Source of the DNA: an uncultured Flammeovirgaceae bacterium
GTDB lineage: Bacteria > Bacteroidota > Bacteroidia > Cytophagales > Cyclobacteriaceae
DNA: 64,000 nucleotides
Reading direction: 5' to 3'
Assembly (NCBI GenBank): GCA_913045135.1
Contig: CAJWQD010000002.1
Coordinates: 19,864-83,863 of the forward strand
Part shown: piece after piece, positions 11,510-32,105 of the stretch
Layout: every line of letters starts with the position of its first letter
Numbering within the stretch: the stretch's first letter is position 1
Notes under the pieces: model-generated
What the model was told of the DNA's origin: nothing
Databases searched by the model: none
The model's input: the letters and a program-made list of their open reading frames with translations, nothing else
Made by a program: the position numbers and the translations under genes

Positions 11510-11548
11510 AAAAGAAAAGGTTAACGAATTTCGTTAACCTTTTCTTTT
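11510..11548. terminator. Bidirectional terminator between convergent genes
   Basis: Perfect 18-bp inverted repeat AAAAGAAAAGGTTAACGA-ATT-TCGTTAACCTTTTCTTTT, A-rich on one flank and T-rich on the other. Confidence 0.85.
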
Positions 11549-11614: not shown

Positions 11615-14119
11615 TTAACCACCATTTCCACCGCCGGTTCCATCACCTGGTCCACCGCCGGTTCCATCACCTGGTCCACCGCCAGTTTGAAGCCCTTGGT
11701 ATTCAAGGACAAACACCCATACACCATCACCATCAGGAGAATAGTCTACCATAAAAGTAGCAAGACCATCTGCTTCTTCTGCGTCATCTCCGATGTAAGT
11801 GTAGGTAACAGATTCAGGAACGTTAGCGGCATCTACCTCAGCCCCGAGTTGTCCATTGTTCGTTACTTTCGCAAGCCCAAAGTAAGCACCTGTTCCATTT
11901 AGGGTGACTGTTTGAGCATCTACATTAATTTCATATGAAAATGGTGCATTTGAGACATCATGGGGTGCAACAGGATCACCACATTGTTCCTCATCTACGC
12001 CTTGCCATGGTTCTAACCACGTTGCCCCGTCATGCAGGATTTCATACATTCCGGTCCAAATCTCTTCTCCATCCTCATTAATACTCATTTCGCCAGGATT
12101 AAAAATATATGTATCATCAAAAAGGCAACCTCTTGTATCAACATCTCCAGCGCTATTAGACCACCAACCAAGATCATTTTCATTAGGGCCTACAGCCAAT
12201 GCCGCTGGTATGGGAGCAATTTGCCAAGCACCCACCATTGGTCCATTTTCATCATCCCATCCACCATGTCCATCGCCAGGTAAATCAGTACCCTCATCGT
12301 CATAATCTTCATCAAGCCACTCATCGTTTTCAAGAACGAAGACCCAGACTCCATCACCATCGGGAGAGTAATCTACCATGAACGTAGCATGGTGATCTTC
12401 CTCATCCACTTCATCTCCTACATAAGTGTAAGTAATAGATTCAGGGACGTCACTGGCATCTAACTCGGCCCCGAGTTGTCCCTCATTGGTAACCTTTGCA
12501 AGTCCAAAATAGGCACCTACTCCGAAGAGTGTAACAGTCTCCTCATCAGCATTTACTTCGTAGGTAAATGGTGCGTTTGATTCATCATGCGGTGCAACGG
12601 GGTCACCACATTGCTCCTCATCTACGCCCTGCCATGGCTCTATCCATGTGGACCCATCAGTGATGATTGTATATTCTCCAGTCCAAATTTCATCGCCGTC
12701 CTCATTTATACTCATTTCGCCCTCATCAAATATATATTCATCGTCAAAAAGGCATCCTCTTGTTTCGATGTCACCAGCACTGTTCGACCACCATCCTAAA
12801 TCACCGAGATTAGGACCTACAGCTAGCGCTCCGGGAATAGGAGCAATGTGCCAAGTTCCCTCCATGGGATTGCCTTCATCTTCATCATCTTCATCATCTA
12901 ATCCCATGGGAGATAAAAATCCTGCAATGACATGGATTACGCCATTTACATTCACTTGAGCATCCGGAATCAAAACTTCAGCATCCCAAAATCCTGCTGA
13001 ATCTTCGCTCATCCCGAGTAGAGCATCAAAATTAGCATCTATGAGTACACCAGTGGCGCCTCCAAATTGGCCTGCAAGCTCAGCTTTATATTTAATGTAT
13101 AGGGGTAGAGGTGTCATTTCGCCATCCTCATCTGGAACTTCAAACATTCCGTTTACAAACACTCCATCATCAAATATGCCACCGGTCAACCATAAAGCAT
13201 CAAGAGTAGGAGAGACATTATCGGTTGCTTCAAGTGCTGCTGTCTCATTGACAACATGGTGTGAAAGAATTCCATACCAATCTTCTCCATCGAAGGCATC
13301 AGCTGAAAGACCAGCTGCTTCAAAAACTTGGTTGGGTACTGCAAATACTGTTGACATTACCTCTGGATCTGAAAGAAAATCTATTAAACTTGGAAGCTCA
13401 TTAACAACAGCAAAAACTTCTGATGCTTGAAGCGCATCACCCATTTCTGAGAACATATCGCTTATTAGTAATGATGCAGCATTGGTACCTAAAATACTTG
13501 CCAATAAACCGCCCGTGGAGGGTGGTATAAGTACTGTCCCAACATCCCAAATAACCCCATTTGAAGCTATAACGGGCTCATCTGCTACCAAGATACCTTT
13601 CGTGTTAGATCCTGTGAGGAGCGTACCATCTTCAGGCGATCCCTCTGAACCATCAGCATCAGGATTGTTTAAATTTACTATGATTGCTTCACCTTGAACG
13701 GTTTCAATACTTCCTCCTGGGGTAATTTCCGTTACGATATAACCAGCACCGTGAAAGGTTAATAATGAGACGATGATGGCTGGACTTACGTCAGAAGCTT
13801 TACTTACTCCCACCGTTGCATACAATGCCGCAAAAGCATCGTTGTCAGGTGCAAATAGAGTAAAAGAGCCTTCATCTGAAAACAGGGAGGAAAGCAAAGT
13901 ACCGTTTTCGTCAATAGGATATGATTCGAGTAGATAAATTAGAGTGTCATAACCTCCGAGATCTTCCAATGTTTCCATAATATTTTCATATTCTGTTTCT
14001 ACCACGTCCAATGGATTATCGACGTCGTCGTCATCACTACAATTGGTGAGAAATGTTAAACTCAAGGCCATCACCAGCATTGTGAAGTACTTGAATGGTG
14101 TTAAAATTTTATTTTTCAT
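11615..14119 (-). CDS. Secreted lipoprotein with two FAS1 (fasciclin-like) domains and two copies of a ~180 aa WWS/CLFDD module
   Basis: Lipobox-like LTFLTNCSDDDD; FTLFAPDNDAFAAL and STVFAVPNQVFEAAGLS FAS1 motifs; duplicated WWSNSAGD..TRGCLFDD..WQGVDEEQCGDPVAPHD. Confidence 0.85.
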   Translation of the reverse strand: MKNKILTPFKYFTMLVMALSLTFLTNCSDDDDVDNPLDVVETEYENIMETLEDLGGYDTLIYLLESYPIDENGTLLSSLFSDEGSFTLFAPDNDAFAALYATVGVSKASDVSPAIIVSLLTFHGAGYIVTEITPGGSIETVQGEAIIVNLNNPDADGSEGSPEDGTLLTGSNTKGILVADEPVIASNGVIWDVGTVLIPPSTGGLLASILGTNAASLLISDMFSEMGDALQASEVFAVVNELPSLIDFLSDPEVMSTVFAVPNQVFEAAGLSADAFDGEDWYGILSHHVVNETAALEATDNVSPTLDALWLTGGIFDDGVFVNGMFEVPDEDGEMTPLPLYIKYKAELAGQFGGATGVLIDANFDALLGMSEDSAGFWDAEVLIPDAQVNVNGVIHVIAGFLSPMGLDDEDDEDEGNPMEGTWHIAPIPGALAVGPNLGDLGWWSNSAGDIETRGCLFDDEYIFDEGEMSINEDGDEIWTGEYTIITDGSTWIEPWQGVDEEQCGDPVAPHDESNAPFTYEVNADEETVTLFGVGAYFGLAKVTNEGQLGAELDASDVPESITYTYVGDEVDEEDHHATFMVDYSPDGDGVWVFVLENDEWLDEDYDDEGTDLPGDGHGGWDDENGPMVGAWQIAPIPAALAVGPNENDLGWWSNSAGDVDTRGCLFDDTYIFNPGEMSINEDGEEIWTGMYEILHDGATWLEPWQGVDEEQCGDPVAPHDVSNAPFSYEINVDAQTVTLNGTGAYFGLAKVTNNGQLGAEVDAANVPESVTYTYIGDDAEEADGLATFMVDYSPDGDGVWVFVLEYQGLQTGGGPGDGTGGGPGDGTGGGNGG
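11628..11685. repeat. 24-bp minisatellite encoding GGGPGDGT repeats at C-terminus of the FAS1 protein
   Basis: Two exact 24-bp units (ccaccgccggttccatcacctggt) at 11628 and 11652 plus a partial third. Confidence 0.9.
11699..12238 (-). repeat. Intragenic duplicated module, distal copy (MVGAWQIAPIP...VWVFVLEY)
   Basis: 540 nt; high identity to the copy at 12326-12865. Confidence 0.9.
12326..12865 (-). repeat. Intragenic duplicated module, proximal copy (MEGTWHIAPIP...VWVFVLEN)
   Basis: 540 nt; same length as the distal copy, offset 627 bp. Confidence 0.9.
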
Positions 14120-15111
14120 AATGATTTTTTATTTGTTTTTCTTCTTTTATTTTATTCTTCTATTTTATATTTTACTTTATTCTTCTTCTTGTTATTTATT
14201 TACTTGTTTAAAAAAATTATGATTTTTGGTTGTATATATTCATTTTCATATAACAAACATTTATACTTCGTTTGACATTAAGGTAACCCCTTATCTAAAT
14301 GAATATTTTATTATCTTTTTTACGTTACTTGTTTACATTACTTGAATAAACCTTGCTCTCTCTTATTGTTTACTGTAAAAATTCTAGTTTCTTAACTACT
14401 CCTTTTCTTTTCTTCCTTTTTCTTACCTATACTTTCTTTCCTGTACAGTTTTCTCGTGGTATTGACCATTTCTGTCTTCTTGACCTTCGTATTTTGCAAC
14501 AGCATTCGCAAAGCAACATGAGCAGAAAGGGATTCGTAGGTTTTATTGATCCTTGTTTTTAGTTTTTAATTATTATCTATTTTACCGTGTACAGAAAATT
14601 CTAACATACAATTTTACATTAATAAATTTAAATATTTCACGGAAATTTAATAAAAAGATGGTTGAAGAGGGAAACCCAAAAAAAAATTATTTTAAATATA
14701 TCCTTAATCAAACAGCTATTATTTGTATAGATCATATTATTTAAGGTTATTTTTTATCAAATTTAAAATAATACCATAAATAATTTGTGTTTTAATCAGT
14801 ATAAGAAATCCAACGATCATTCAATTAAATGGTTTTGTTAAAAAAAATTATCAATTTCAATGTTGGAAAGAGTCAGAATCACTTTTCACATTCATAATAC
14901 GGATGTTCATTTCCACTTCACTTTGTATTTTTAGATATTTAAAAATTGAATACAACTTAATTTTTTTTCTAGCTAGATTAAATTTGAGCTGTTAAAAATT
15001 TTATATACTAATTTGAATTAAAAATTAGGATGTTTATACAAATTCAAACATTTTTGTACCTAGACTTAGCTTTATTGAACATTGATGTGTTAATTTGGCT
15101 AAAACTGTTAA

Positions 15112-15177
15112 ATGTTTGTGCCGATTTTAATTAAAAATTTAATTAGCATACCTACGATTGTAATCATGCAAATCTGA
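15112..15177 (+). CDS. Putative leader peptide of the ilv-leu-thr operon, MFVPILIKNLISIPTIVIMQI*
   Basis: 21-codon ORF with 7 Ile, 2 Leu and 2 Val, ending 69 nt upstream of ilvE and followed by alternative hairpins. Confidence 0.7.
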   Translation: MFVPILIKNLISIPTIVIMQI

Positions 15178-15179
15178 GT

Positions 15180-15232
15180 TGGCTTATTTAATAAATAAAA
15201 AAGAGCCATTCCGAATAAATAAGAATGGCTCT
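15180..15232 (+). promoter_or_regulatory. Putative attenuator: antiterminator hairpin (15180-15208) versus terminator/occluding hairpin (15202-15232)
   Basis: AGAGCCATTC/GAATGGCTCT perfect 10-bp stem; its 5' arm can instead pair with TGGCT at 15180-15184, reinforced by TTATTT/AAATAA. Confidence 0.65.
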
Positions 15233-15245
15233 CTCTATATAAAAA

Positions 15246-16136
15246 ATGTATTTTCAAGAGGATAGTATTGTATTTTTAGATGGTAATTGGATCGAAGTAA
15301 GAAAGGCAAATTTTAGTCTTTTTAGTCAAACTATGCATTATGGTTTTGGTGCCTTCGATGGAATGAGATCTTATAAAAATGCTGAGGGGTGCAATATTTT
15401 CAAAGCAAAAGAACATTTCGAAAGGTTGATTGTCGCCTGCCGTCAATTAACCCTAGAAATACCGTATGGCGTTGATGAGCTTGTGAATGTTGCCTATAAA
15501 TTGCTTAAAAAAAATAAGTTAGTGAATGCCTATGTAAGACCATTAATTTTTATGGACACCAATATGGATCTTACAACAGATAGTAAAGTACATGTTTTTA
15601 TAGCTGCATGGAGGTGGAAAAAATATTTGGGTAATGAACCCTTAAATCTTATGATCTCCGAGCATACTAAAACCGTAGGTTTAGCAAATAAAATAAATGC
15701 CAAAATTACCAGTAATTATACAAATTCTATCTTGGCATCTTCCCAGGCCAAAAAATTAGGTTATAGTGAAGCTTTGATGCTTGATATTAACGGTAATATA
15801 TCAGAAAGTCCAGCGGCTAATCTTTTTTATGAGAAAGATGGTGAACTTTTCACCCCAACTACCGACTATGCTTACGATGGTATCACTCGTAAAACAATTA
15901 TTGAGCTCGCAAAACAATGGAATATAAAGGTTACCGAAAAAGAAATTACGCCAGAAGAAATATATAAGGCTGATTACGCTTTCTTGACAGGCACTGCGAC
16001 AGAGGTATCGACCATAAGTAGTATCAACGGTGAAATTTTTAAGGCCGAGTGGGAGGATTCTAACGCGCACAGTCTTTATATGATGTACCGTCAGCTAGTA
16101 ATGTTTAATGAATACCAGGGACTAACTATTGTCTAA
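15246..16136 (+). CDS. ilvE: Branched-chain amino acid aminotransferase
   Basis: Class IV aminotransferase; [14 protein letters not shown] and [28 protein letters not shown]. Confidence 0.9.
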
Positions 16137-16140
16137 AATC

Positions 16141-17814
16141 ATGTCCACATTGAACAAATACAGTAAAGTGATAACTCAAGACCCAAGCCAGCCAGCTTCT
16201 CAAGCTATGTTGTATGCAGTTGGATTATCTACCTCAGACTTGTCAAAGGGCCAGGTTGGTATTGTTAGTACGGGTTTTGAAGGTAACCCTTGCAATATGC
16301 ATTTGAATATTTTGGCACACCAAGTTAAAAAAGGAGTTTTGGAAGCTGATTTGGTGGGTTTGATCTTTAATACAATTGGAGTGAGTGATGGTATCTCAAA
16401 CGGGACAGAGGGTATGAAATATTCCTTAGTTTCTCGAGACATCATAGCAGACTCAATAGAAACGGTTGTCAACGCGCAGTATTACGATGCTGTTGTCCCA
16501 GTTGTAGGGTGCGATAAGAACATGCCTGCTGCCATTATGGCCTTGGGAAGATTAAATCGACCTGGATTAATGGTTTATGGTGGAAGTATTAAGCCTGGAA
16601 AATGGAAAGGGAAAGATCTTAATATCGTTTCAGCTTTTGAAGCGTATGGTGCCAAATTATCAAATAGCATCTCAGAAGAAGATTATGAAGGTATCATAAA
16701 AAATTCAATTCCGGGTCCAGGAGCATGCGGTGGTATGTACACAGCCAATACCATGTCCTCGGCGATAGAAGCTTTGGGAATGAGTCTACCTTTTTCATCA
16801 TCTAATCCCGCAGAAAGTCTAGACAAAGAGTCAGAAACCTTGAAAGTTGGAGCGGCGATCAAAAATCTAATGATACAGGATATTCTACCCAGGCAAATCA
16901 TGACAAAGCACGCTTTTGAAAACGCAATTGCGACCGTAATGGTATTGGGAGGCTCAACTAACGCAGTGTTGCACCTTATTGCTATGGCTAAATCGGTAGA
17001 TGTACATATTGGTTTAGATGATTTTCAAAGAATATCTGATAACACTCCTTTTATAGCAGACTTAAAACCTTCAGGATCGTATTTGATGGAAGATTTACAT
17101 TATGTCGGAGGAGTTCCTGCAGTATTAAAAGAGATGTTAAAGCTGGGTTATTTGCAAGGAGACTGCTTAACGGTCACAGGGAAAAGTATTGGAGAAAACT
17201 TGGAGGTAGTAAAATCTTTGAGTGAGAAGCAAAAGATAATTGTATCTTTCGATAATCCTATAAAAGCGAATGGGCATTTACAGATTCTATACGGTAACTT
17301 AGCTCCTTCAGGTGCTGTAGCAAAAATTACAGGAAAGGAAGGAGAGATTTTTGAGGGTCCTGCCAGAATTTACGAGGATGAATTTGCTGCTATTAAAGGT
17401 ATCAAAGAGGAGGTGAAGAAAGGGGAAGTTATAGTAATCAGGTACTCTGGCCCAAAAGGTGCTCCAGGTATGCCAGAAATGTTAAAGCCTACCGGTGCTG
17501 TCATGGGTGCCGGACTTGGTAAAGATGTCGCATTGATAACAGATGGAAGATTTTCAGGTGGTTCTCATGGCTTTGTAGTAGGACATATTACCCCAGAGGC
17601 GCAAGAGGGGGGACCTTTGGCTTTTGCGCAAAACGGAGATATCATTAGGATAGACTCCATCAGCAATCAATTGGAATTGAAAATTTCTGATGAGGAGTTG
17701 GAAAAAAGGAAATCAATTTGGGTTCAACCCGATTATAAAGCAAACAAAGGAGTGTTAAAAAAATATATCAATTCGGTTGCTACGGCATCTGAGGGTTGTG
17801 TTACAGATCAATAA
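16141..17814 (+). CDS. ilvD: Dihydroxy-acid dehydratase
   Basis: [49 protein letters not shown]. Confidence 0.95.
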
Positions 17815-17816
17815 TT

Positions 17817-19550
<1,734 letters not shown>

Positions 19551-19551
19551 C

Positions 19552-20136
19552 ATGAGCTTGAAACCTATACAATCTACTTCAACACTTAGAGATTTTACTT
19601 TATCAGTACTTACTGAGGATAAGGCGGGTTTAATCAATCAATTAACTATTATTTTCACAAAACGAAAAATCAATATTAGTAGCCTAAATGTGTCCAATTC
19701 AGAGGTAGCTGGTGTAAGTCGTTTTACAATAGTTACGAGAACCAACAGAAATATGATCGACAAGATTGTTAAACAAATTAGAAAACTGATTGATGTATTG
19801 GGTGCGTTTGTCTATGAAGAAGATCAGATTTTCTATCAAGAAATTGCCCTTTATAAAGTACCTACAAAAGCTTTTATTAATGGGAATTCAGTGGAAGATC
19901 TAGTAAGAAATAGTGGGGCGCGTATTTTAGTTGTCGAAGAGGAATGCATCATAATTGAAAAAACGGGTCATTCAAAAGAAACTCATGATTTATATCAAAA
20001 ACTCGAACCTTTTGGATTGCTTGAATTTATTCGATCAGGCCGTGTAGCAGTATCGAAGTCAACAAGAAAAACTGAAGCCTATATCAAAGGTTTAGAGGCT
20101 TCAAATTCAAATAAGTTAAGTATTAAAGATTTTTAA
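19552..20136 (+). CDS. ilvN: Acetolactate synthase small (regulatory) subunit
   Basis: N-terminal ACT domain (LSVLTEDKAGLINQLTIIFTKRKINISSLNVS); immediately follows ilvB. Confidence 0.9.
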   Translation: MSLKPIQSTSTLRDFTLSVLTEDKAGLINQLTIIFTKRKINISSLNVSNSEVAGVSRFTIVTRTNRNMIDKIVKQIRKLIDVLGAFVYEEDQIFYQEIALYKVPTKAFINGNSVEDLVRNSGARILVVEEECIIIEKTGHSKETHDLYQKLEPFGLLEFIRSGRVAVSKSTRKTEAYIKGLEASNSNKLSIKDF

Positions 20137-20157
20137 TTAGAAATAAAAGTTAGACAA

Positions 20158-21204
20158 ATGGCAAAAATTAATTTTGGTGGTGTAGAAGAAGAAGTGGTGA
20201 CTCGTGAGGAATTTCCATTGGAAAACGCAAGAGAAGTAATGAAGGATGAAGTTATAGCTATAATAGGTTATGGTGTCCAAGGTCCAGGTCAAGCACTCAA
20301 TTTAAGGGATAATGGATTTAATGTTATTGTAGGTCAAAGAAAGGGAAGTAAATCATGGGATAAAGCAGTCGCTGATGGATTTGAACCCGGCGTCTCATTG
20401 TTTGAAATCAAGGAAGCTTGTGATAAAGGAACGGTTATTCAGTATTTGTTATCAGATGCTGGGCAAATAGATCAATGGCCTGAGGTTAAACCTTTTTTAA
20501 CCTCAGGGAAGGCACTTTATTTTTCTCACGGATTCGGCGTTACTTACAAAGATCAAACAGGAATTGATCTTCCGAGTGACATCGATGTTATTTTAGTGGC
20601 CCCAAAGGGCTCAGGTACGTCATTGAGAAGATTATTTGTAGCTGGAAAAGGGTTGAATTCATCTTTTGCAGTCCATCAAGATGCGACGGGTAGGGCGCGA
20701 GAACGGGTGATATCGCTTGGTATAGGTGTAGGATCAGGTTATCTTTTTGAAACTAATTTCAAAAGTGAGGTGTACAGCGATCTGACTGGAGAGCGAGGAA
20801 GTTTGATGGGTGCCATTCAAGGATTATTTGCGGCACAATATGATTTATTGCGTAAAAAGGGACATTCACCCTCTGAAGCATTTAACGAGACTGTGGAGGA
20901 GGCAACACAATCATTGTACCCATTGGTAGCTGAAAATGGAATGGATTGGATGTATGCAAATTGCTCTACCACTGCCCAAAGAGGTGCTTTGGATTGGTGG
21001 AAAAAATTTAGAGATGCTGCAGCACCAGTTTTTGAAGAACTTTATGAAAGTGTAGCTACTGGAAATGAAGCTAAAATTACTATTGAAGCAAATCAGAAAA
21101 TAACTTATAGAGAGGGGCTTGAAAAAGAGCTTAATGAATTAAGGGAATCTGAAATGTGGCGAACAGGTGCTACTGTTAGAAAACTAAGACCAGAGAACAA
21201 ATAA
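20158..21204 (+). CDS. ilvC: Ketol-acid reductoisomerase
   Basis: [64 protein letters not shown]. Confidence 0.95.
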
Positions 21205-21229
21205 TTATTTTTTTTTAACTTCGCTTGCC

Positions 21230-22762
21230 GTGGCCGATCAACTATACATTTTTGATACAACTCTTCGAGATGGTGAACAAGTACCCGGTTGTAAACTAAA
21301 CACTGAAGAAAAAATCATAGTGGCTAAGGCGCTTGAAGAGTTAGGTGTAGATATTATTGAGGCTGGTTTTCCTATTTCTAGTCCTGGCGATTTTAATTCA
21401 GTTCGTGATCTATCTAAGGCTACTTCAAGACCAATTATTTGTGCCTTAACCAGGGCTGTTGAGAAGGATATTGAAGTGGCTGCGGAGGCTTTAAAATATG
21501 CCAAAAGAAAGCGGATTCACACAGGCATAGGTACTTCTTTTTTCCATATTTATCATAAATTGATGTCTACAGAGGGAAAAGTACTTGAACGCGCTATCGA
21601 TGCGGTTAGATATGCCAAAAAATATGTAGAAGATGTTGAATTTTATGCTGAAGACGCGGGACGTAGTGAAAATGAGTATTTAGCAAGAGTGGTAGAAGCG
21701 GTGATCGCTGCGGGAGCTACGGTAATCAATATTCCAGATACTACTGGATATTGCTTACCAGAAATGTATGGTGCGAAAATCAAGTATTTGATGGAGCATG
21801 TGAAAGGAATAGATAAAGCCATTATTTCTACACATTGTCATAATGATTTGGGTATGGCTACTGCCAATTCGATCATGGGCGTGACTAATGGTGCAAGACA
21901 GGTTGAGGTCACGATGAATGGCATTGGAGAGCGTGCAGGTAATACCAGTTTAGAAGAAGTAGTTATGACGTTCAAAAGTCACAAATCGCTCAATATTGAA
22001 ACTAATATTAATACTAAGAATATTTATAAAACTAGTAGGCTCGTTTCTAACTTGATGAATATGCCGGTTCAGCCCAACAAAGCTATAGTAGGTAGAAATG
22101 CTTTTGCCCATTCGTCAGGAATACACCAAGATGGTGTTCTTAAACTCCGTGAAAATTATGAAATAATTGATCCTGTAGAGGTTGGTGTTCAAGAATCGTC
22201 TATACTTTTATCAGCCAGAAGTGGTAGAGCGGCTTTGAGACATCGTCTGAGTATTTTAGGTTATTCCCTTGATGAGGATAAGATAGATGAAATATATGAG
22301 CATTTCCTTAAAATTGCCGATACCCAGAAAGAAATTTCAGATGAAGATCTTGAAAACCTTATGGGTAAAGTTCACGGTAATAAAGAGCATATTAGGCTTG
22401 ATTTCCTAGAGGTTAAGACCGGAAAAGATTTGATACCACATGCCGTGGTAAGGTTAGATATTTTAGGAGAAAAAATGAAAGCGACTGGTACCGGTGTAGG
22501 TGGTATTGATGCAGCTCTGAACGCGATAAGGTCTATAATTAATAAAAATGAGGTGATCGATGAAATTTTGATTCAGGCATTTAGTCGAACGACCCTAGCC
22601 TTAGGAAAAGTTCATGTTCAACTAAAGAATGAAGGAGGAAAAATGTTTCATGGGTTTGCGGCACACCAAGATTTAATAACTGCTTCCATAGAGGCATATT
22701 TGGATGCCGTAAATAAAATGGGACCACTGCAATTTAATATGATTAAAGTAAACGAATTTTAA
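21230..22762 (+). CDS. leuA: 2-isopropylmalate synthase
   Basis: [53 protein letters not shown] start. Confidence 0.95.
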
Positions 22763-22772
22763 GAATGTATCT

Positions 22773-24179
22773 ATGAGTCAACCCACGACACTTTTTGATA
22801 AAATATGGGATAATCATACCGTTAAGGTTATTGAAAATGGACCTACAGTTTTGTATATTGATAGGCATTATATTCATGAGGTAACTAGTCCAGTGGCTTT
22901 TCTAGGTTTAGAAAAACGCGGCTTGAATGTTGTAAATCCTCAAAAAACGACGGCAACTCCCGATCATAATATTCCGACACAAAATCAACATTTGAGTATT
23001 CAAGATGCTTTGTCTAGAAATCAAGTTCTTATGTTGATGAAGAATTGTAAGAATCACAATATTCCCTTGTATGGTTTAAATCATAAATGGCAGGGGATAG
23101 TTCATGTAATTGGTCCTGAACTAGGACTTACCCAGCCCGGGATGACCATTGTTTGTGGCGATAGCCATACTTCGACGCACGGAGCTTTCGGTTGTGTTGC
23201 ATTTGGTATTGGCACGAGTGAGGTTGAAATGGTATTAGCTACTCAATGTATTATGCAGCTTAAGCCGAAGAAGATGAGAATAAAAATTGATGGCGTTTTG
23301 AGTAAGGGAGTAACGGCCAAAGACATTGCGCTTTATATTATATCACAAATATCAACGAGTGGAGGCACGGGACATTTTATAGAATATGCTGGAAGTGCAA
23401 TAGAAGGATTAACCATGGAGGGACGCATGACCTTATGCAATATGAGTATTGAAAGTGGTGCTAGAGGGGGTTTAATTGCTCCTGATCAGACGACTTTCGA
23501 TTACCTGATGAAAAGGGAATTTTGCCCGCAAAATCAAAAATGGTTAGATGCAATAGCTAAATGGGCCATGCTAAAGACCGATGAAGATGCTATTTTTGAT
23601 AAAGAATATTTATTTCATGCTCGGGACATTGAGCCGATGATTACTTTCGGAACTAATCCAGGAATGGGAACGGGAGTTACAGGTCACATTCCTTTGACGG
23701 CGTCTTTGGCAGAGGGTGAAAGGATAACTTATGAAAAATCTCTTCAATACATGGGTTTTAATGAAGGTGATAAGTTACAAGGAAAATCGATTGACTACGT
23801 TTTTGTAGGAAGTTGTACAAATGGAAGGATCGAGGATTTAAGAGAGTTTTCTCATTTTATAAAAGGCAAAAAGAAGGCAGAAAATATTAATGCTTGGATT
23901 GTACCAGGTTCAAAACAAGTAGAAGCTCAAGCCCAAGAGGAGGGTTTATTAGCGATTCTGGAAGCTGCTGGATTTGAATTGAGACAGCCAGGCTGCTCGG
24001 CTTGTTTAGCCATGAATGATGACAAAATTCCCGCCGGAAAATATGCAGTTTCAACCTCGAATAGGAACTTCGAAGGTAGGCAAGGACCTGGAGCACGTAC
24101 CTTACTTGCAAGCCCCCTGGTAGCAGCAGCATGTGCCATTTCAGGAAAAATTACAGATCCAAGAGAATATTTGAATTAA
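22773..24179 (+). CDS. leuC: 3-isopropylmalate dehydratase large subunit
   Basis: Aconitase family; [39 protein letters not shown]. Confidence 0.95.
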
Positions 24180-24191
24180 AAGTTTAAATTG

Positions 24192-24779
24192 ATGCCCATC
24201 GAAAAATTCATCAAAATTCAGTCTTCGGCTGTGCCGTTAGATATAGAAAATATAGATACAGACCAAATTATACCTGCACGTTTTTTGAAGGCGGTAGAGC
24301 GTAAAGGTTTTGGAGATAATTTATTTAGAGATTGGCGTTTTGAAAAGTCCAATAAACCTATCAAGGGTTTCCCATTGAATGATACCAAGTATAAGGGACA
24401 AATTTTGGTTGGAGGAAAAAATTTTGGAAGTGGATCAAGTAGAGAGCACGCGGCCTGGGCACTATATGATTATGGATTTAAGGTAATTGTTTCTAGTTTT
24501 TTTGCCGATATATTCAAAGGAAATGCTTTAAATAACGGTCTGCTTCCAGTTCAGGTAACCTCGGAAGAACTTAATGAAATTTTCGAAGCTATAAATAGGT
24601 TGTCGCAAGCTACTTTTACTGTTGACCTTGTAGAACAAACCTTTACAATAGACGCTTCAAATAAAGTAATTGATTTTGAGATTAATTCTTACAAGAAGGA
24701 ATGCCTTTTAAATGGCTATGATGATATTGACTATTTATTAAGTCTAAAAAAAGAAATAAAAATTTTTGAAGCGACATGA
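24192..24779 (+). CDS. leuD: 3-isopropylmalate dehydratase small subunit
   Basis: [29 protein letters not shown]. Confidence 0.95.
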
Positions 24780-26353
24780 GTGATATGTTAAAGAAAAAAG
24801 TACTCATATTAGATACAACTCTCAGAGATGGTGAACAAACCTCTGGTGTGTCGTTTACGGAAACTGAAAAGTTGAGTTTAGCTAAAATTTTGTTAGAAGA
24901 GGTAAAAGTGGACCGATTAGAAATTACCTCTGCGCGTGTATCTCAGGGGGAAAAAAATGCGGCTCTTCGAATTTTAGATTGGGCCAGGGGTACTGGTCAT
25001 CTTGATAAGATTGAGATTCTAGGGTTTGTTGATCAGTATGCGTCTGTCAAGTGGATTCAAGAAGTAGGGGGTAAGATGATGAATTTGCTCGCTAAAGGGT
25101 CGTTGAAGCATCTAAAGGGACAATTACGCAAAACACCAGAAGAACACATTGAATCATTAATTGACACTATTAATTATGCTAATTCCTTGGGTATTCAAGT
25201 CAATTTATATTTAGAAGATTGGTCAAACGGAATATTAAAATCTCGGGATTACGTATTTCAATTAATGGATGCACTTCAGAGTAAGAACGTTCTGAGATTT
25301 ATGTTGCCAGATACTCTAGGTATTTTACAGCCCTCTCAGACGGCTTTGTATGTGAAGGAGATGACTCAACGTTATCCTAATCTTAAATTTGATTTTCATG
25401 CACACAATGACTATGATTTAAGTGTTGCAAATGTTTTAGAGGCAGTAAAGGTGGGAGCAAGTTGTATCCATGTAACAGTTAATGGTCTGGGAGAGCGTGC
25501 TGGGAATGCCATTTTGAGTAGTTCAATTGCCGCCCTTCGTGATCATCTCAAAATTGAAACAAATGTAGTCGAATCTAATATTTACCGAATCAGTAAATTG
25601 GTTGAAACATTTTCCGGTTTACGAATTCCTGCTAACAAACCTTTAATTGGAGATAATGTTTTTACTCAAACTTGCGGGGTACATGCCGATGGAGACAGCA
25701 AGGATAACTTATATTATAATATTCTTATACCAGAACGCTTTGGAAGATCACGAAGCTATGCGCTAGGTAAAACTTCAGGAAAAGCAAACATTAAAAAAAA
25801 CTTAGCTCAATTAGGCATTGAACTTGATGAGAAAATTATCAAAAAAGTAACTGATAGAGTCATTCAATTAGGAGATAAAAAAGAGCAAATTACCATTGAT
25901 GACTTGCCCTATATAGTAGCAGATGTTTTAGAATTGGCTGAAATTGACCAAAAGGTAAAAATCAAGAATTATAGCTTATCACACGCAAAAGGAATGAAAC
26001 CCGTAGCTTCTGTAGCATTAATGATTGAAGGAAAGCAGTATGAAACGACTTCTGCTGGTGATGGACAATACGATGCCTTTATGAATGCCTTATTAAAAAT
26101 TTATGAGGAAGAGTTGAATAAAACACTTCCTCGATTGATTGATTATAGTGTTTTGATTCCACCTGGAGGGAAGTCGGATGCCTTGTGCGAAACTACAATA
26201 ACTTGGGAAATGAACAGAGAATTTAAAACTAGGGGAGTGGATACCGATCAAACTTTTTCAGCTATAAAGGCGACTGAGAAAATGTTGAATTTACTTGAAA
26301 ATGAGACCATTCTTCATATCACGCAGTTACAATCACAATTTACCTTAGCATAA
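24776..26353 (+). CDS. cimA: LeuA/CimA-family acyltransferase, probable (R)-citramalate synthase
   Basis: [44 protein letters not shown]; second LeuA-type enzyme in the operon, between leuD and leuB; substrate not provable from sequence alone. Confidence 0.7.
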
Positions 26354-26359
26354 GTTCCA

Positions 26360-27430
26360 ATGAATCTAAATATTGCAATACTATCTGGAGACGGAATAGG
26401 GCCAGAAATCATTAACGAAGCATTAAAAATTACGCAAGTAGTTGCTGAAAAATTCAATCATAAGTTAACCTACAAACAAGCACTAACTGGTGCGACCGCC
26501 ATTGAAGCAGTAGGAGATCCATATCCAGAAGAAACTCATGCGATCTGCATGGAATCTGATGCTGTATTATTTGGAGCTATTGGAGATCCAAAATATGATA
26601 ATGATCCAAGCGCTAAAATACGTCCTGAACAAGGATTATTATCAATGCGAAAAAAATTGGGACTTTATGCCAATATTCGGCCTTTAACTACTTTCAAATC
26701 CTTGATTCATAAATCCCCTTTACGAACTGAATTAGTGGATGGAGCTGATTTTGTCTGCATACGTGAGCTTACAGGAGGTATTTATTTTGGTCAACCCCAA
26801 GGTAGATCAGAGGATGGTAATACAGCTTATGATACTTGTGTATATACACGATTTGAAATTGTAAGAATTATTGAATTAGGATTTCAATTTGCAGGTAAAA
26901 GAAGAAAAAAATTAACAGTAGTTGACAAAGCAAATGTATTGGCTACTTCAAGATTATGGCGTCAGATTGCTCAAGAAATTGCACCAAACTATCCAGATGT
27001 CGAAGTTGAATATTTATTAGTAGACAACGCTGCCATGCGAATCATACAATGGCCAAAAGATTTTGATGTAATGGTAACAGAAAATATGTTTGGCGATATT
27101 TTAACTGATGAGGCCAGTGTGATCAGTGGTTCAATGGGTTTGTTACCCTCAGCCTCAGTTGGAGTGCATACCTCAGTATTTGAACCAATTCATGGTTCAT
27201 ACCCCCAAGCAGCAGGAAAAAATATAGCCAATCCAATTGCTACTATTCTCTCATCTGCCATGATGTTTGAATACGCTTTTAAACTTACTAAAGAAGCTGA
27301 CATTATCAAAGAAGCGGTTGATGCATCAATCATTAAAGAATTTGTCACCGTTGATATAGCTCAAGGAGCTCAAGGTCAAACGACTTCTGAGGTGGGAGAT
27401 TGGATTACCTCATATATCAAGAATAAATAA
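26360..27430 (+). CDS. leuB: 3-isopropylmalate dehydrogenase
   Basis: [66 protein letters not shown]. Confidence 0.95.
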
Positions 27431-27432
27431 TT

Positions 27433-29880
27433 ATGATCGTACTTAAGTTTGGAGGCAGCTCTGTTGGGACTGCTGAAAGCATAAAAGCTGTTGGTGATGT
27501 GCTGATTCAAAAATCAGGCATGGATGATTGTTTTGTTGTTATTTCAGCCGTTGGTGGAGTGACCAATAAGTTGGTTGAGATGGCCTACTTTGCTGAAAAA
27601 GGAGTCTCTGATTATGAGACTTCTTTAAATGAAATTGAGGAAATACACTTATCTCTTGTAAAAGCCCTAATCCCTATTCAAATTCAAAGTGGTGTTTTGG
27701 GAGGAATTAAGCTGATAATTAATGAATTGGAGGAAGTTTTAAAAGGGATTTTTGTGCTTAAAGAGAATAGTTCTAAATCTTTTGATTTTGTATGTGGTGT
27801 TGGTGAGCGATTGTCTTCATTAATTATATACAAATATTTAAATGGTTTGAGCCAAGATGTAACCTTAGTAGATCCCACAAAAATCATAATATGTACTAAT
27901 GAATTTGGGACTGGTAATATTTTGATTGAAACATCTAGAGAAAAAGCCCAAAATTATTCTCCAAATTTAAAAAAAATCAATATCTGTCCAGGTTTTATTG
28001 CGGGGACTTTAGACGGAAATTTTACTACTTTAGGTAGAGGAGGCTCTGATTATACTGCTGCATTATTTGCAAACTTTTATAAAGTTTCCGAATTACAAAT
28101 ATGGTCAGATGTAAGTGGCTTGATGACTGCTGACCCTAGATTGGTTGCTCATGCCCGTGCAATTCCTCAATTATCTTATGAGGATGCCTTAGAACTTTCC
28201 CATTTTGGAGCAAAAGTTATTTATCCACCTACAATACAACCAGCTCTTGAAGAAAATATTCCGATAATTATCAAGAACACTTTTAATCCAGAAGATTTGG
28301 GAACGAAAATAACAAAGTCGTGGGAAGACCAGAGCACCATAAAAGGGATTTCATCTATTAATGATATTTCGCTACTCAATTTAAGTGGAAGTGGAATGGT
28401 AGGAATACCCAGTTTTTGTGCCAGGCTTTTCCAAGCACTAGCAGATCGAAATATCAACGTAATAATTATTACTCAAGCCTCTTCAGAACATACTATCTGT
28501 GTGGGCATCAAGTCAAAAGATGAAAAAAATGCTATTGAAGGAATAAATAATGCTTTTGTTCGCGAAATAAGTTCAGGAAAAATTAATCCGATAGATATTG
28601 AGGTCGATTTATCTATTGTCGCACTGGTTGGATCTAATATGAAAAGTCAAGTGGGTATTAGCGGTCAAATGTTCAGTATTTTGGGGAAAAATGGAATCAA
28701 TATAAAGGCGATTGCTCAAGGGTCATCAGAACGTAATATTACCGTAGTTATTCAAAAAAAGTATCTAAAAAAAGCCATAAATGTATTACATGAGTCTTTT
28801 TTTGTAAATGAAATAAAACAAGTTAAATTATTTATTATAGGTTTGGGAAATGTTGGAAAAGCATTTCTCAATCAAATAGCTCTTCAAAAAACCTATTTAT
28901 TTAAAGAGTTTAATTTGGAATTTCAAATAATTGGTGTTGCAAATTCTAGAAAAATGCTTTTCAATGAAGACGGGCTTGATCCACTTGAAGTTATAAATAT
29001 AATAGCCAGTGGAGATGTTTTTGAGCAGTCTGAGTTCATTTATAAGATGAGGCAACTCAATTTAAGAAATAGCATTTTTATTGATATCACAGCCTCAGCA
29101 GTTGTAGCTGAGGCTTATGAAGAGATTTTAAAAGAAACTATTTCAGTTGTTACTCCAAATAAAATTGCCGCAACCCGATCATTTGCCAATTACCAAGCAT
29201 TGAAGAGTACTGCAAATAAATTTAAGTCTTATTTTTTATTTGAAACTAATGTGGGTGCTGGTCTTCCAGTACTCTCTACCTTAAGTGACCTGGTCAAAAG
29301 TGGTGATCGAATCATCAAAATTGAAGCAGTGCTTTCTGGAACATTGAATTTCATTTTTAATAATTACAATGCTCAACGCTCCTTCGTTGAGGTGGTTAAA
29401 CAGGCAAAAAAAGAAGGTTACACTGAGCCAGATCCAAGATTAGATTTATCTGGAGAAGATGTGATGCGTAAAATTTTAATTTTGGCCCGAGAAAGTGGTT
29501 ATCAATTTGATTTAGAAGATGTAGTTGGTAATAACTTTCTTCCTGCAAATTGTCAAAATACTGAAGGAGAGGATGATTTTTATATTAAGCTTGCTGCAAA
29601 TGAGGGTCATTTTGCTAAACTTTATCATCAAGCTACTTCTAACTCATGCAAATTAAGATACGTGGCAACCTTTGAAAATCAAAGATTAACAACAGGACTT
29701 TCTCAGATAGTAGAGACGCATCCTTTTTATCAGTTGGAAGGTAAAGATAATATTGTATTGTTTTATACGGAAAGATATCCTGAACAACCATTGGTTATCA
29801 AAGGTGCCGGTGCTGGTGCTGAGGTAACGGCCTCTGGTATTTTTGCTGATGTCATGCGTGTAACCAATTCTCAAAATTAA
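27433..29880 (+). CDS. thrA: Bifunctional aspartate kinase/homoserine dehydrogenase
   Basis: N-terminal KFGGSSVGTAESI aspartokinase, two ACT regions, C-terminal homoserine dehydrogenase FETNVGAGLPVLSTL..VLSGTLNFIFN. Confidence 0.95.
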   Translation: MIVLKFGGSSVGTAESIKAVGDVLIQKSGMDDCFVVISAVGGVTNKLVEMAYFAEKGVSDYETSLNEIEEIHLSLVKALIPIQIQSGVLGGIKLIINELEEVLKGIFVLKENSSKSFDFVCGVGERLSSLIIYKYLNGLSQDVTLVDPTKIIICTNEFGTGNILIETSREKAQNYSPNLKKINICPGFIAGTLDGNFTTLGRGGSDYTAALFANFYKVSELQIWSDVSGLMTADPRLVAHARAIPQLSYEDALELSHFGAKVIYPPTIQPALEENIPIIIKNTFNPEDLGTKITKSWEDQSTIKGISSINDISLLNLSGSGMVGIPSFCARLFQALADRNINVIIITQASSEHTICVGIKSKDEKNAIEGINNAFVREISSGKINPIDIEVDLSIVALVGSNMKSQVGISGQMFSILGKNGINIKAIAQGSSERNITVVIQKKYLKKAINVLHESFFVNEIKQVKLFIIGLGNVGKAFLNQIALQKTYLFKEFNLEFQIIGVANSRKMLFNEDGLDPLEVINIIASGDVFEQSEFIYKMRQLNLRNSIFIDITASAVVAEAYEEILKETISVVTPNKIAATRSFANYQALKSTANKFKSYFLFETNVGAGLPVLSTLSDLVKSGDRIIKIEAVLSGTLNFIFNNYNAQRSFVEVVKQAKKEGYTEPDPRLDLSGEDVMRKILILARESGYQFDLEDVVGNNFLPANCQNTEGEDDFYIKLAANEGHFAKLYHQATSNSCKLRYVATFENQRLTTGLSQIVETHPFYQLEGKDNIVLFYTERYPEQPLVIKGAGAGAEVTASGIFADVMRVTNSQN

Positions 29881-29881
29881 A

Positions 29882-30811
29882 ATGATTCAGTCAATAAAAG
29901 TTTTTGCACCGGCAACGGTAGCCAATGTCGGCTGCGGATATGACGTTCTTGGTTTTGCTTTGGAGGAATATGGAGATGAATTGACCTTAACTGAGCGAAA
30001 AGACGATCAATTGGTTATTAAGAATATTCAAGGGGTATCAGGACTACCTTTAGATCCTGCCAAAAATGTCGCGTCAGTTACAATTAGTGCAATTCTAGAA
30101 GATTTGAAAATAAGTAAAGGATTTAATATTAAGATTAAAAAGAATATTGCTGCTGGAAGTGGATTAGGTTCCAGCGCATCAAGTGCCGCTGCTGCTGCTT
30201 ATGCCGTCAACAAAATTTTAGGATCACCCAAAAGTCAGAAAGAACTCGTAAAATTTGCAATGGAAGGAGAGAGAATAGCTTCTGCAAAAGCGCATGCTGA
30301 CAACGTAGCTGCTAGTATTTTAGGAGGATTTACAGTAGTGAGGAGTTACGATCCATTGGATGTATTCAATATACCTTATCCTGAAGATTTACGAGTGGTC
30401 ATCATATTTCCACAGGTAGAGATAAAAACAAGTGATGCAAAAAAAATCTTGAAGGAAGAAGTAAAATTATCAGATGCCGTAAAACAATGGGGAAATGTTG
30501 CAGGATTAGTCTCAGGGCTTATACAGCATGATTTTGAAAGAATAGGTAATTCGCTTCAGGATGTAATTATTGAGCCTATAAGGAGTATTCTTATTCCACT
30601 ATATCGAGAAATGAAAACCATCGCGTTGAAGGCTGGTGCCTTGGGCTTCAGTATTTCAGGCTCAGGGCCGAGTATGTTTTGTTTTGTTCAACAAAACGCG
30701 CAGTCATCAATGATTATAGAAAGAGCAAAGGAGTTATATGGGGAAAGTGGAATTAATATAATTTCATTTGTTTCTCGAATAAACAATGTAGGAGCGAAAA
30801 CTTTGGATTAA
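29882..30811 (+). CDS. thrB: Homoserine kinase
   Basis: GHMP kinase; APATVANVGCGYDVLGFAL, AAGSGLGSSASSAAAAA. Confidence 0.95.
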   Translation: MIQSIKVFAPATVANVGCGYDVLGFALEEYGDELTLTERKDDQLVIKNIQGVSGLPLDPAKNVASVTISAILEDLKISKGFNIKIKKNIAAGSGLGSSASSAAAAAYAVNKILGSPKSQKELVKFAMEGERIASAKAHADNVAASILGGFTVVRSYDPLDVFNIPYPEDLRVVIIFPQVEIKTSDAKKILKEEVKLSDAVKQWGNVAGLVSGLIQHDFERIGNSLQDVIIEPIRSILIPLYREMKTIALKAGALGFSISGSGPSMFCFVQQNAQSSMIIERAKELYGESGINIISFVSRINNVGAKTLD

Positions 30812-30812
30812 A

Positions 30813-32105
30813 ATGAAATTTTATTCTACTAATAATAAATCGTATCAGGTTAGTTTTGAGGAGGCTGTTTTTAAAAGTTTACCACCAGATAATGGTCTAT
30901 TTTATCCAACCAGTTTACCTCAGTTAGACCCTTCATGGCTTCAAAATTTAAAAAATATTTCCAAAGTAGAAATAGGTCTTGAAGTTTCATCGCAATTCAT
31001 TGGTGACGAAATACCTTTTTCTAGGTTGCAACAAATTATTGAAGAAACTGTAGATTTCGATATTCCGCTTAGAAATATAAGTGATCAAATAGCTGCTTTA
31101 GAGTTATTTCATGGCCCCACTTGGGCATTTAAAGATGTTGGCGCTCGTTTTTTATCTAGGTGCATGGCTTATTTTATCGAGGGATCAAGTGAAGAAACAA
31201 CCATATTGGTAGCGACCTCTGGTGATACAGGAGGTGCAGTGGCTTCCGGCTTTTTTAATATACCAGGAATTAAAGTTAAAATTTTGTATCCCAAGGGAAA
31301 AGTAAGTAAAGTTCAAAGAAAGCAATTGACTACTTGGGGAGGGAATATTAGTGCTTGTGAAGTAGCTGGGACGTTTGATGATTGTCAAAGTTTGGTAAAA
31401 CAATCTTTTTTAGACAAGGATCTTAATAGAGTTATGAATTTATCTTCTGCTAATTCGATCAATATTGCAAGATTGATTCCGCAGTCATTTTATTATTTCT
31501 ATGCCATTCAGCAATCGGAGTCGGACCATAATGTCATTTGTGTGCCATCTGGTAATTATGGCAACTTAACTGCGGGATTGTGGGCTTGGTCAATGGGCTT
31601 GCCAATTGATAGATTTATTGCAGCCTCTAATGCTAATTCTGTTGTACCAGAGTACTTGGATACTGGGATTTATACACCGAGGCCTTCCATACAAACTTAT
31701 GCAAATGCTATGGATGTAGGAGCACCTAGTAATTTTGTAAGACTGAATGAGCTCTTTGGCAAGGATCATTCCAAAATGAAAAAATATATATCCGGATTTA
31801 GCCTTGGTGATGATGAAATTTTGACCACTATTAGGACTTGCCACAACATGAACAATTATGTTTTAGATCCGCATGGTGCAATTGGATATCAGGCATTGCT
31901 AAAAAATTTAAAACCAAATGAACGGGGTATATTTTTAGAAACTGCCCATCCTGTTAAGTTTTTAGATGTAGTGAATAAGGCTTTACTAGTGTCTGTTAAT
32001 TTTGATGAAAAATTGTTAAGTGTTTTTGACAGAGAAGAAGTATATCAGACCGCAACTGATGATTTTCCATCATTCAAAGAGCAACTGATAAGTAAATCAT
32101 TATGA
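30813..32105 (+). CDS. thrC: Threonine synthase
   Basis: GPTWAFKDVGARFLSR PLP-lysine motif, VATSGDTGGAVASGF, VPSGNYGNLTAGL. Confidence 0.95.
   Translation: MKFYSTNNKSYQVSFEEAVFKSLPPDNGLFYPTSLPQLDPSWLQNLKNISKVEIGLEVSSQFIGDEIPFSRLQQIIEETVDFDIPLRNISDQIAALELFHGPTWAFKDVGARFLSRCMAYFIEGSSEETTILVATSGDTGGAVASGFFNIPGIKVKILYPKGKVSKVQRKQLTTWGGNISACEVAGTFDDCQSLVKQSFLDKDLNRVMNLSSANSINIARLIPQSFYYFYAIQQSESDHNVICVPSGNYGNLTAGLWAWSMGLPIDRFIAASNANSVVPEYLDTGIYTPRPSIQTYANAMDVGAPSNFVRLNELFGKDHSKMKKYISGFSLGDDEILTTIRTCHNMNNYVLDPHGAIGYQALLKNLKPNERGIFLETAHPVKFLDVVNKALLVSVNFDEKLLSVFDREEVYQTATDDFPSFKEQLISKSL

Follow-up and report, generated by a model that had tools for sequence, protein, structure and literature searches.

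The control of ilv operons by ribosome-mediated attenuation is a classical mechanism. In the ilvGMEDA and leuABCD systems of E. coli and Salmonella, a leader peptide rich in branched-chain amino acids (BCAA) and mutually exclusive antiterminator and terminator hairpins precede the biosynthetic operon. A comparative survey published in 2010 by Lopatovskaya and colleagues, which PMC4833913 and PMC10272879 cite, may already list Bacteroidota cases, therefore priority for the phylum is not claimed here. The Corynebacterium ilvB-II motif is an attenuator with a BCAA-rich uORF; the ilvB-OMG and Leptospira ilvB motifs have been re-read as uORFs, the ilvB-OMG peptides being rich in BCAA and threonine, and Corynebacterium is among the groups for which ribosome-mediated ilv attenuation has been demonstrated or suggested (PMC10272879). 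Leader-peptide attenuation was also noted upstream of amino-acid operons of Flavobacterium psychrophilum (PMC9723704). A literature search, with most subscription papers outside its reach, found no description of the ilvE leader treated here.

The locus considered here lies in a window of 64,000 nucleotides, that is, the whole stretch of DNA that was analysed. It belongs to the incomplete metagenome-assembled genome of a marine Bacteroidota bacterium; the names given to close relatives are those of Flammeovirgaceae or Cyclobacteriaceae bacteria (such as UBA4465 and UBA976). A 1.1-kb gap, flanked by a divergent minus-strand gene (11615-14119) and by ilvE (15246), holds the leader. Downstream of the leader there is a 13-gene operon (15246-32105) with the order ilvE-D-B-N-C-leuA-C-D-cimA-leuB-thrA-B-C:

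15246 to 16136, plus strand: ilvE, operon gene 1, matching TIGR01122 above its cut-off
16144 to 32105, plus strand: open reading frames of ilvD, ilvB, ilvN, ilvC, leuA, leuC, leuD, a cimA-like gene, leuB, thrA, thrB and thrC

Most of these names come from NCBIfam; leuB, thrB, and thrC were assigned by reading the sequence. The thrA product is a fused aspartokinase/homoserine dehydrogenase. The identical 13-gene order is found in three members of the genus (G007, G004, and G003) and in G073, a member of another genus of the same family. The leader precedes the genes making the amino acids that it would sense (ilv, leu). The operon also contains a second isopropylmalate/citramalate-synthase-like gene (window 24776-26353), which adjoins leuB and thrABC. 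The top match of its product is the Leptospira CimA model, with a score under the cut-off of that model; given this CimA-like gene, isoleucine may be made from pyruvate.

The leader itself is composed of the following elements:

15112 to 15177, plus strand: leader-peptide uORF, with a start at ATG 15112 or GTG 15118 and the stop codon TGA at 15175-15177
15180 to 15184, plus strand: segment 2, TGGCT, the 5' arm of the antiterminator, which pairs with AGCCA at 15204-15208
15202 to 15211, plus strand: segment 3, AGAGCCATTC, common to the antiterminator and the terminator-like hairpin
15223 to 15232, plus strand: segment 4, GAATGGCTCT, the 3' arm of the terminator-like hairpin
15233 to 15245, plus strand: initiation region of ilvE together with a degenerate U-tract, CTCTATATAAAAA

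The putative short uORF, rich in codons for the end products of the operon, translates to MFVPILIKNLISIPTIVIMQI*, in which 11 of the 21 residues are Ile, Leu, or Val. The start that aligns with those of relatives is GTG 15118, giving 19 codons (VPILIKNLISIPTIVIMQI); ATG 15112 lies in the same frame two codons 5' of it. Segments 3 and 4 form a perfect inverted repeat, and the 3:4 hairpin (-14.4 kcal/mol, z -6.6) is more stable than the competing 2:3 fold (-6.5 kcal/mol, z -2.5). Segment 2 pairs better than shuffled sequences do (p 0.023). Dropping positions 15178-15188, which mimics a ribosome at the stop codon, changes the energy of the competing fold from -6.5 to 0 kcal/mol and leaves the hairpin at -14.4 kcal/mol. 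The two pairings are mutually exclusive, and a ribosome on the stop codon would mask segment 2. When 15063-15245 was dinucleotide-shuffled 3000 times, 3.2% of the shuffles had an ORF as rich in BCAA, 0.8% had a perfect 10-bp hairpin, and none had the two combined (0/3000). The evidence for an attenuator is moderate on this single sequence and strong on the comparative data described below. The original prediction had pointed to the Ile/Leu/Val-rich leader ORF, the TGGCT/AGCCA pairing, and the perfect 10-bp hairpin; its ORF coordinates and residue count were exact, and the coordinates of both pairings were correct. Most of its interpretation is supported as well.

We propose, with a probability of about 0.88, that a ribosome-mediated attenuator controls this ilvE-led ilv-leu-thr operon. 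When charged Ile, Val, and Leu tRNAs are ample, the ribosome would reach the stop codon and cover segment 2; segments 3 and 4 would then pair, and the hairpin at 15202-15232 would halt expression of the operon. Under scarcity of Ile or Val, the ribosome would stall at codons around 15157-15165 and leave segment 2 exposed; with segment 4 yet to be synthesized, segment 2 would pair with segment 3, and in that case no hairpin would form and the operon would be expressed. A ribosome covers about 12-15 nt downstream of the A-site codon. A stall at ATT 15157, GTA 15160, or ATC 15163 would leave 15180-15184 free, whereas a stall at the last Ile codon (15172) or at the stop would not, and the former three are the likely control codons. 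The sequences show the conserved coding frame, its BCAA richness, the exclusive pairings that change together across the phylum, and the canonical terminators of relatives; transcription start, stalling, and output are inferred.

The arrangement resembles ilvGMEDA and leuABCD of E. coli and Salmonella in having a BCAA-rich leader and exclusive hairpins before biosynthetic genes, but a sequence relation to them was not found. In the leaders studied here the uORF stop lies within segment 2 or immediately before it, and not all of them show a separate 1:2 pause hairpin. Two further differences from the enterobacterial systems are the degenerate U-tract of the window species and the use of one leader for ilv, leu, and thr genes. 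Like ilvB-II with its terminator, the locus has a BCAA-rich uORF followed by a terminator-like hairpin; however, the ilvB-II, ilvB-OMG, and Leptospira ilvB motifs precede ilvB rather than ilvE, and ilvB-II belongs to another phylum (PMC10272879). The F. psychrophilum case comes from the same phylum with the same proposed mechanism, but the main text of that paper neither gives an ilv case nor aligns leader, antiterminator, and terminator (PMC9723704). Searches for Rfam riboswitch, T-box, and amino-acid leader families gave no gathering-score match in the window region or in 20 relatives. This bears on the possibility that the element acting here is not a ribosome-sensed leader but a T-box or a riboswitch that binds a metabolite, for instance one of the ppGpp-type ilv kind. 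A conserved structured 5' region ahead of an amino-acid operon would suit such an element; the sub-threshold Rfam matches in the window are chance-like, however, and conservation is confined to a coding frame and three short segments, an aptamer-like core being absent, which makes this alternative extremely unlikely.

Conservation of the ribosome-sensed leader was examined in a genus set of 10 genomes, nine of which (the window's included) have an ilvE match, eight of these with an alignable leader. An uninterrupted Ile/Leu/Val-rich frame of 19 codons with a start codon is present in 7/8 aligned leaders, with peptides such as MPFIIKFLVGLLVSVIIHT, MIQISIVLMYILLSVIIHT, and MPFIIINLINLLTPVVIQT*. 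The frames end in V/I-rich codons, and the likely control codons of the window share their leader region with the V-I-I stretch of other members. Differences fall on the three codon positions as 163/121/214, a third-position excess, and the I/L/V count is 9-11 in the leader frame vs. 0-6 in the other two. In G003 (L007/L055), the frame and the BCAA codons are kept, with a 1-base insertion near the start that shifts the frame relative to the conserved ATG; the assembly may be in error here, or else the leader starts in an unusual way. The locus of G006 (L017; 420 nt before ilvE) keeps an inverted repeat further upstream and has no recognisable uORF or hairpin, so the attenuator appears to have been lost or replaced. 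The hairpin pairs form 10/10 in all eight aligned sequences. Nine pairs are invariant and one covaries, the window carrying an A:U to G:C double change at 15203:15231 relative to the genus. The antiterminator arm occurs in two registers, TGGCT (window and G001) and TGGTT four columns further (most others), both complementary to segment 3 in the genus alignment. Since the within-genus covariation is too weak by itself (68/500 shuffles reach the same one-pair level), the argument rests on the phylum-wide comparison.

For that comparison, ilvE loci were sampled from the family and from named Bacteroidota genomes (Fulvivirga, Reichenbachiella, Pedobacter, Flavobacterium, Chryseobacterium, and others). 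In most loci, a hairpin with a long T-tract is preceded by a short uORF, whose peptide contains stretches like IIVVLIIVSVI or SVIIIVIIIP. A unit was counted when the terminator score exceeded 5, the uORF had at least 7 I/L/V in 10 residues, and its stop lay 8-50 nt before the hairpin. At least one unit of a BCAA uORF and a canonical U-tract terminator was found in 51 of 68 ilvE leaders, and in 2 of the 1256 tiles from the same family that served as controls; the four genus loci in the set are not among the 51, their U-tracts being too weak. Eight of the 68 loci (L045, L046, L064, L065, L066, L072, L073, and L089) carry two units in tandem upstream of ilvE, and in these the first and the second peptide differ in composition. 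The region of the uORF stop is complementary to the 5' arm of its own terminator at p ≤ 0.05 in 46/54 loci, pooled p-values being too small and only descriptive here as the loci are related and non-independent; for this test the uORF stop positions of the window, L026, and L030 were set by hand. In most loci, segment 2 falls between about -20 and +12 relative to the uORF stop, a placement in which a ribosome at termination would mask it. The arms are of different types (GCCATTC, GCCAATC, CGCCTTC, CCTTCTC, CCCGCC, and GTCCTGTCTCAC), each matched by its own segment 2. When own and exchanged arms were compared, the own pair turned out to be 4.1 kcal/mol better after centring (permutation sd 0.36), and none of 10,000 permutations matched this value. 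The leader Leu count is higher where the operon has leu genes (p 0.001), and Thr codons show only a trend with thr genes (p 0.07), neither value being corrected for phylogeny.

The original prediction had invoked the ilv/leu attenuation logic of enterobacteria and had proposed a comparison across Bacteroidota for an Ile-rich uORF with matching stem changes. The comparison came out in its favour: the frame is conserved in the genus, BCAA uORFs stand before terminators across the phylum, and the arms change together. The logic is that of classic attenuation, 2:3 vs. 3:4. These data indicate that Bacteroidota widely place BCAA operons under ribosome-sensed leader control. Such control would need a ribosome keeping pace with RNA polymerase, therefore coupling of transcription and translation in Bacteroidota could be tested on a defined element. 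What emerges from the sequences is a putative phylum-wide RNA element absent from Rfam, with natural tandem attenuators and a lineage in which the U-tract is decaying.

This decay is apparent from the terminator scores. The window has -42.7 and the genus ranges from -14.0 to +7.5, compared with +16 to +57 for most of the more distant relatives scored, one of which has -1.9. As the two nearest relatives outside the genus score high (G083 +31, G073 +23), loss of the U-tract is most simply derived. Features of an intrinsic terminator are accordingly strong in relatives and marginal in the genus; the window has a stable hairpin but a poor U-tract. A caveat raised earlier, that the U-tract is poor, was therefore right and can be refined: relatives are strong, the genus is weak, and the window species is weakest. 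The ancestral output was most likely transcription termination. In the genus, where the U-tract is weak, termination may be leaky, the hairpin may occlude the start of ilvE (13 nt beyond it in the window), or both may apply. The unusual feature of the system would be this lineage-specific decay of the terminator with the hairpin kept.

Bacteroidota initiate translation largely without Shine-Dalgarno sequences. The same sensor could have another output, the genus hairpin mainly blocking initiation of ilvE translation rather than ending transcription. Besides the weakened U-tract, this would fit the hairpin-to-ATG distance of 11-16 nt in the genus vs. mostly 18-45 nt in relatives, as well as the compensatory G:C at 15203:15231, which strengthens the stem and at the same time breaks the U-tract. 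However, other genus members retain a U-rich tail (TTTCTTTATTT; in G005 TTTTTTTAT, score +7.5), the hairpins of two relatives whose terminators are good likewise stop 6-7 nt short of the ATG, and a single block at ilvE would not obviously control 12 downstream genes. Such an output is rather unlikely. The fuller proposal, that the genus terminator now acts mainly as a translational BCAA-leader switch opening and closing ilvE initiation, within a phylum-wide class that has no Rfam entry and counts tandem double attenuators among its members, is unlikely.

The plus-strand spacer is A-rich, which explains a good terminator score on the minus strand: in the terminator search within the window, the hairpin (15190-15232) followed by TTTTTTATTTATTAA reaches +23.1. 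One could thus suppose that the hairpin only terminates an antisense transcript and that the uORF is incidental. But the strong U-tract of relatives lies on the plus strand, after the uORF and directly before ilvE, and all genes to the right of the hairpin, from ilvE to thrC, are on the plus strand, so this explanation is very unlikely.

The genus also has a trp attenuator (L149-L155), located about 50-130 nt before trpE, with the leader M.LNKTYWWWL..Q.YNL* (WWW, WRW, or RWW). Its terminator, GCCTGCTGTTCACAGCAGGCTTTTTTTTT, has a canonical T8-T9 tract and scores +33 to +53, therefore the lineage still uses canonical terminators. It shares with the ilvE leader a uORF and a terminator or terminator-like hairpin before the first gene, and differs in its Trp codons and canonical T-tract. 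Judged by its sequence, this trp leader is a textbook trp attenuator and a positive control for attenuation in the lineage; an Rfam match to it was not found (L151). The regions upstream of hisG and pheA in the genus revealed no comparable His- or Phe-rich leader.

Two further elements lie upstream of the ilvE leader:

15008 to 15028, plus strand: inverted repeat CTAATTT-N7-AAATTAG, a candidate operator upstream of the inferred promoter
15049 to 15056, plus strand: CATTTTTG, in a strongly conserved block of the genus alignment

The Bacteroidota -7 box has the consensus TAnnTTTG, from which CATTTTTG differs by one mismatch. The putative promoter is placed here, and the transcript is predicted to start near 15063; a scan for sigma-70-type promoters found none at the leader, as expected for Bacteroidota. 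The repeat is present upstream of ilvE in 9/9 genus genomes with an ilvE locus, including G006, with few further copies per genome, and may possibly serve as an operator for some regulator. Just beyond the end of the minus-strand gene 11615-14119, a strong bidirectional terminator, GGTTAACGAATTTCGTTAACC, is found at window positions 11514-11539, with T-tracts on both strands.
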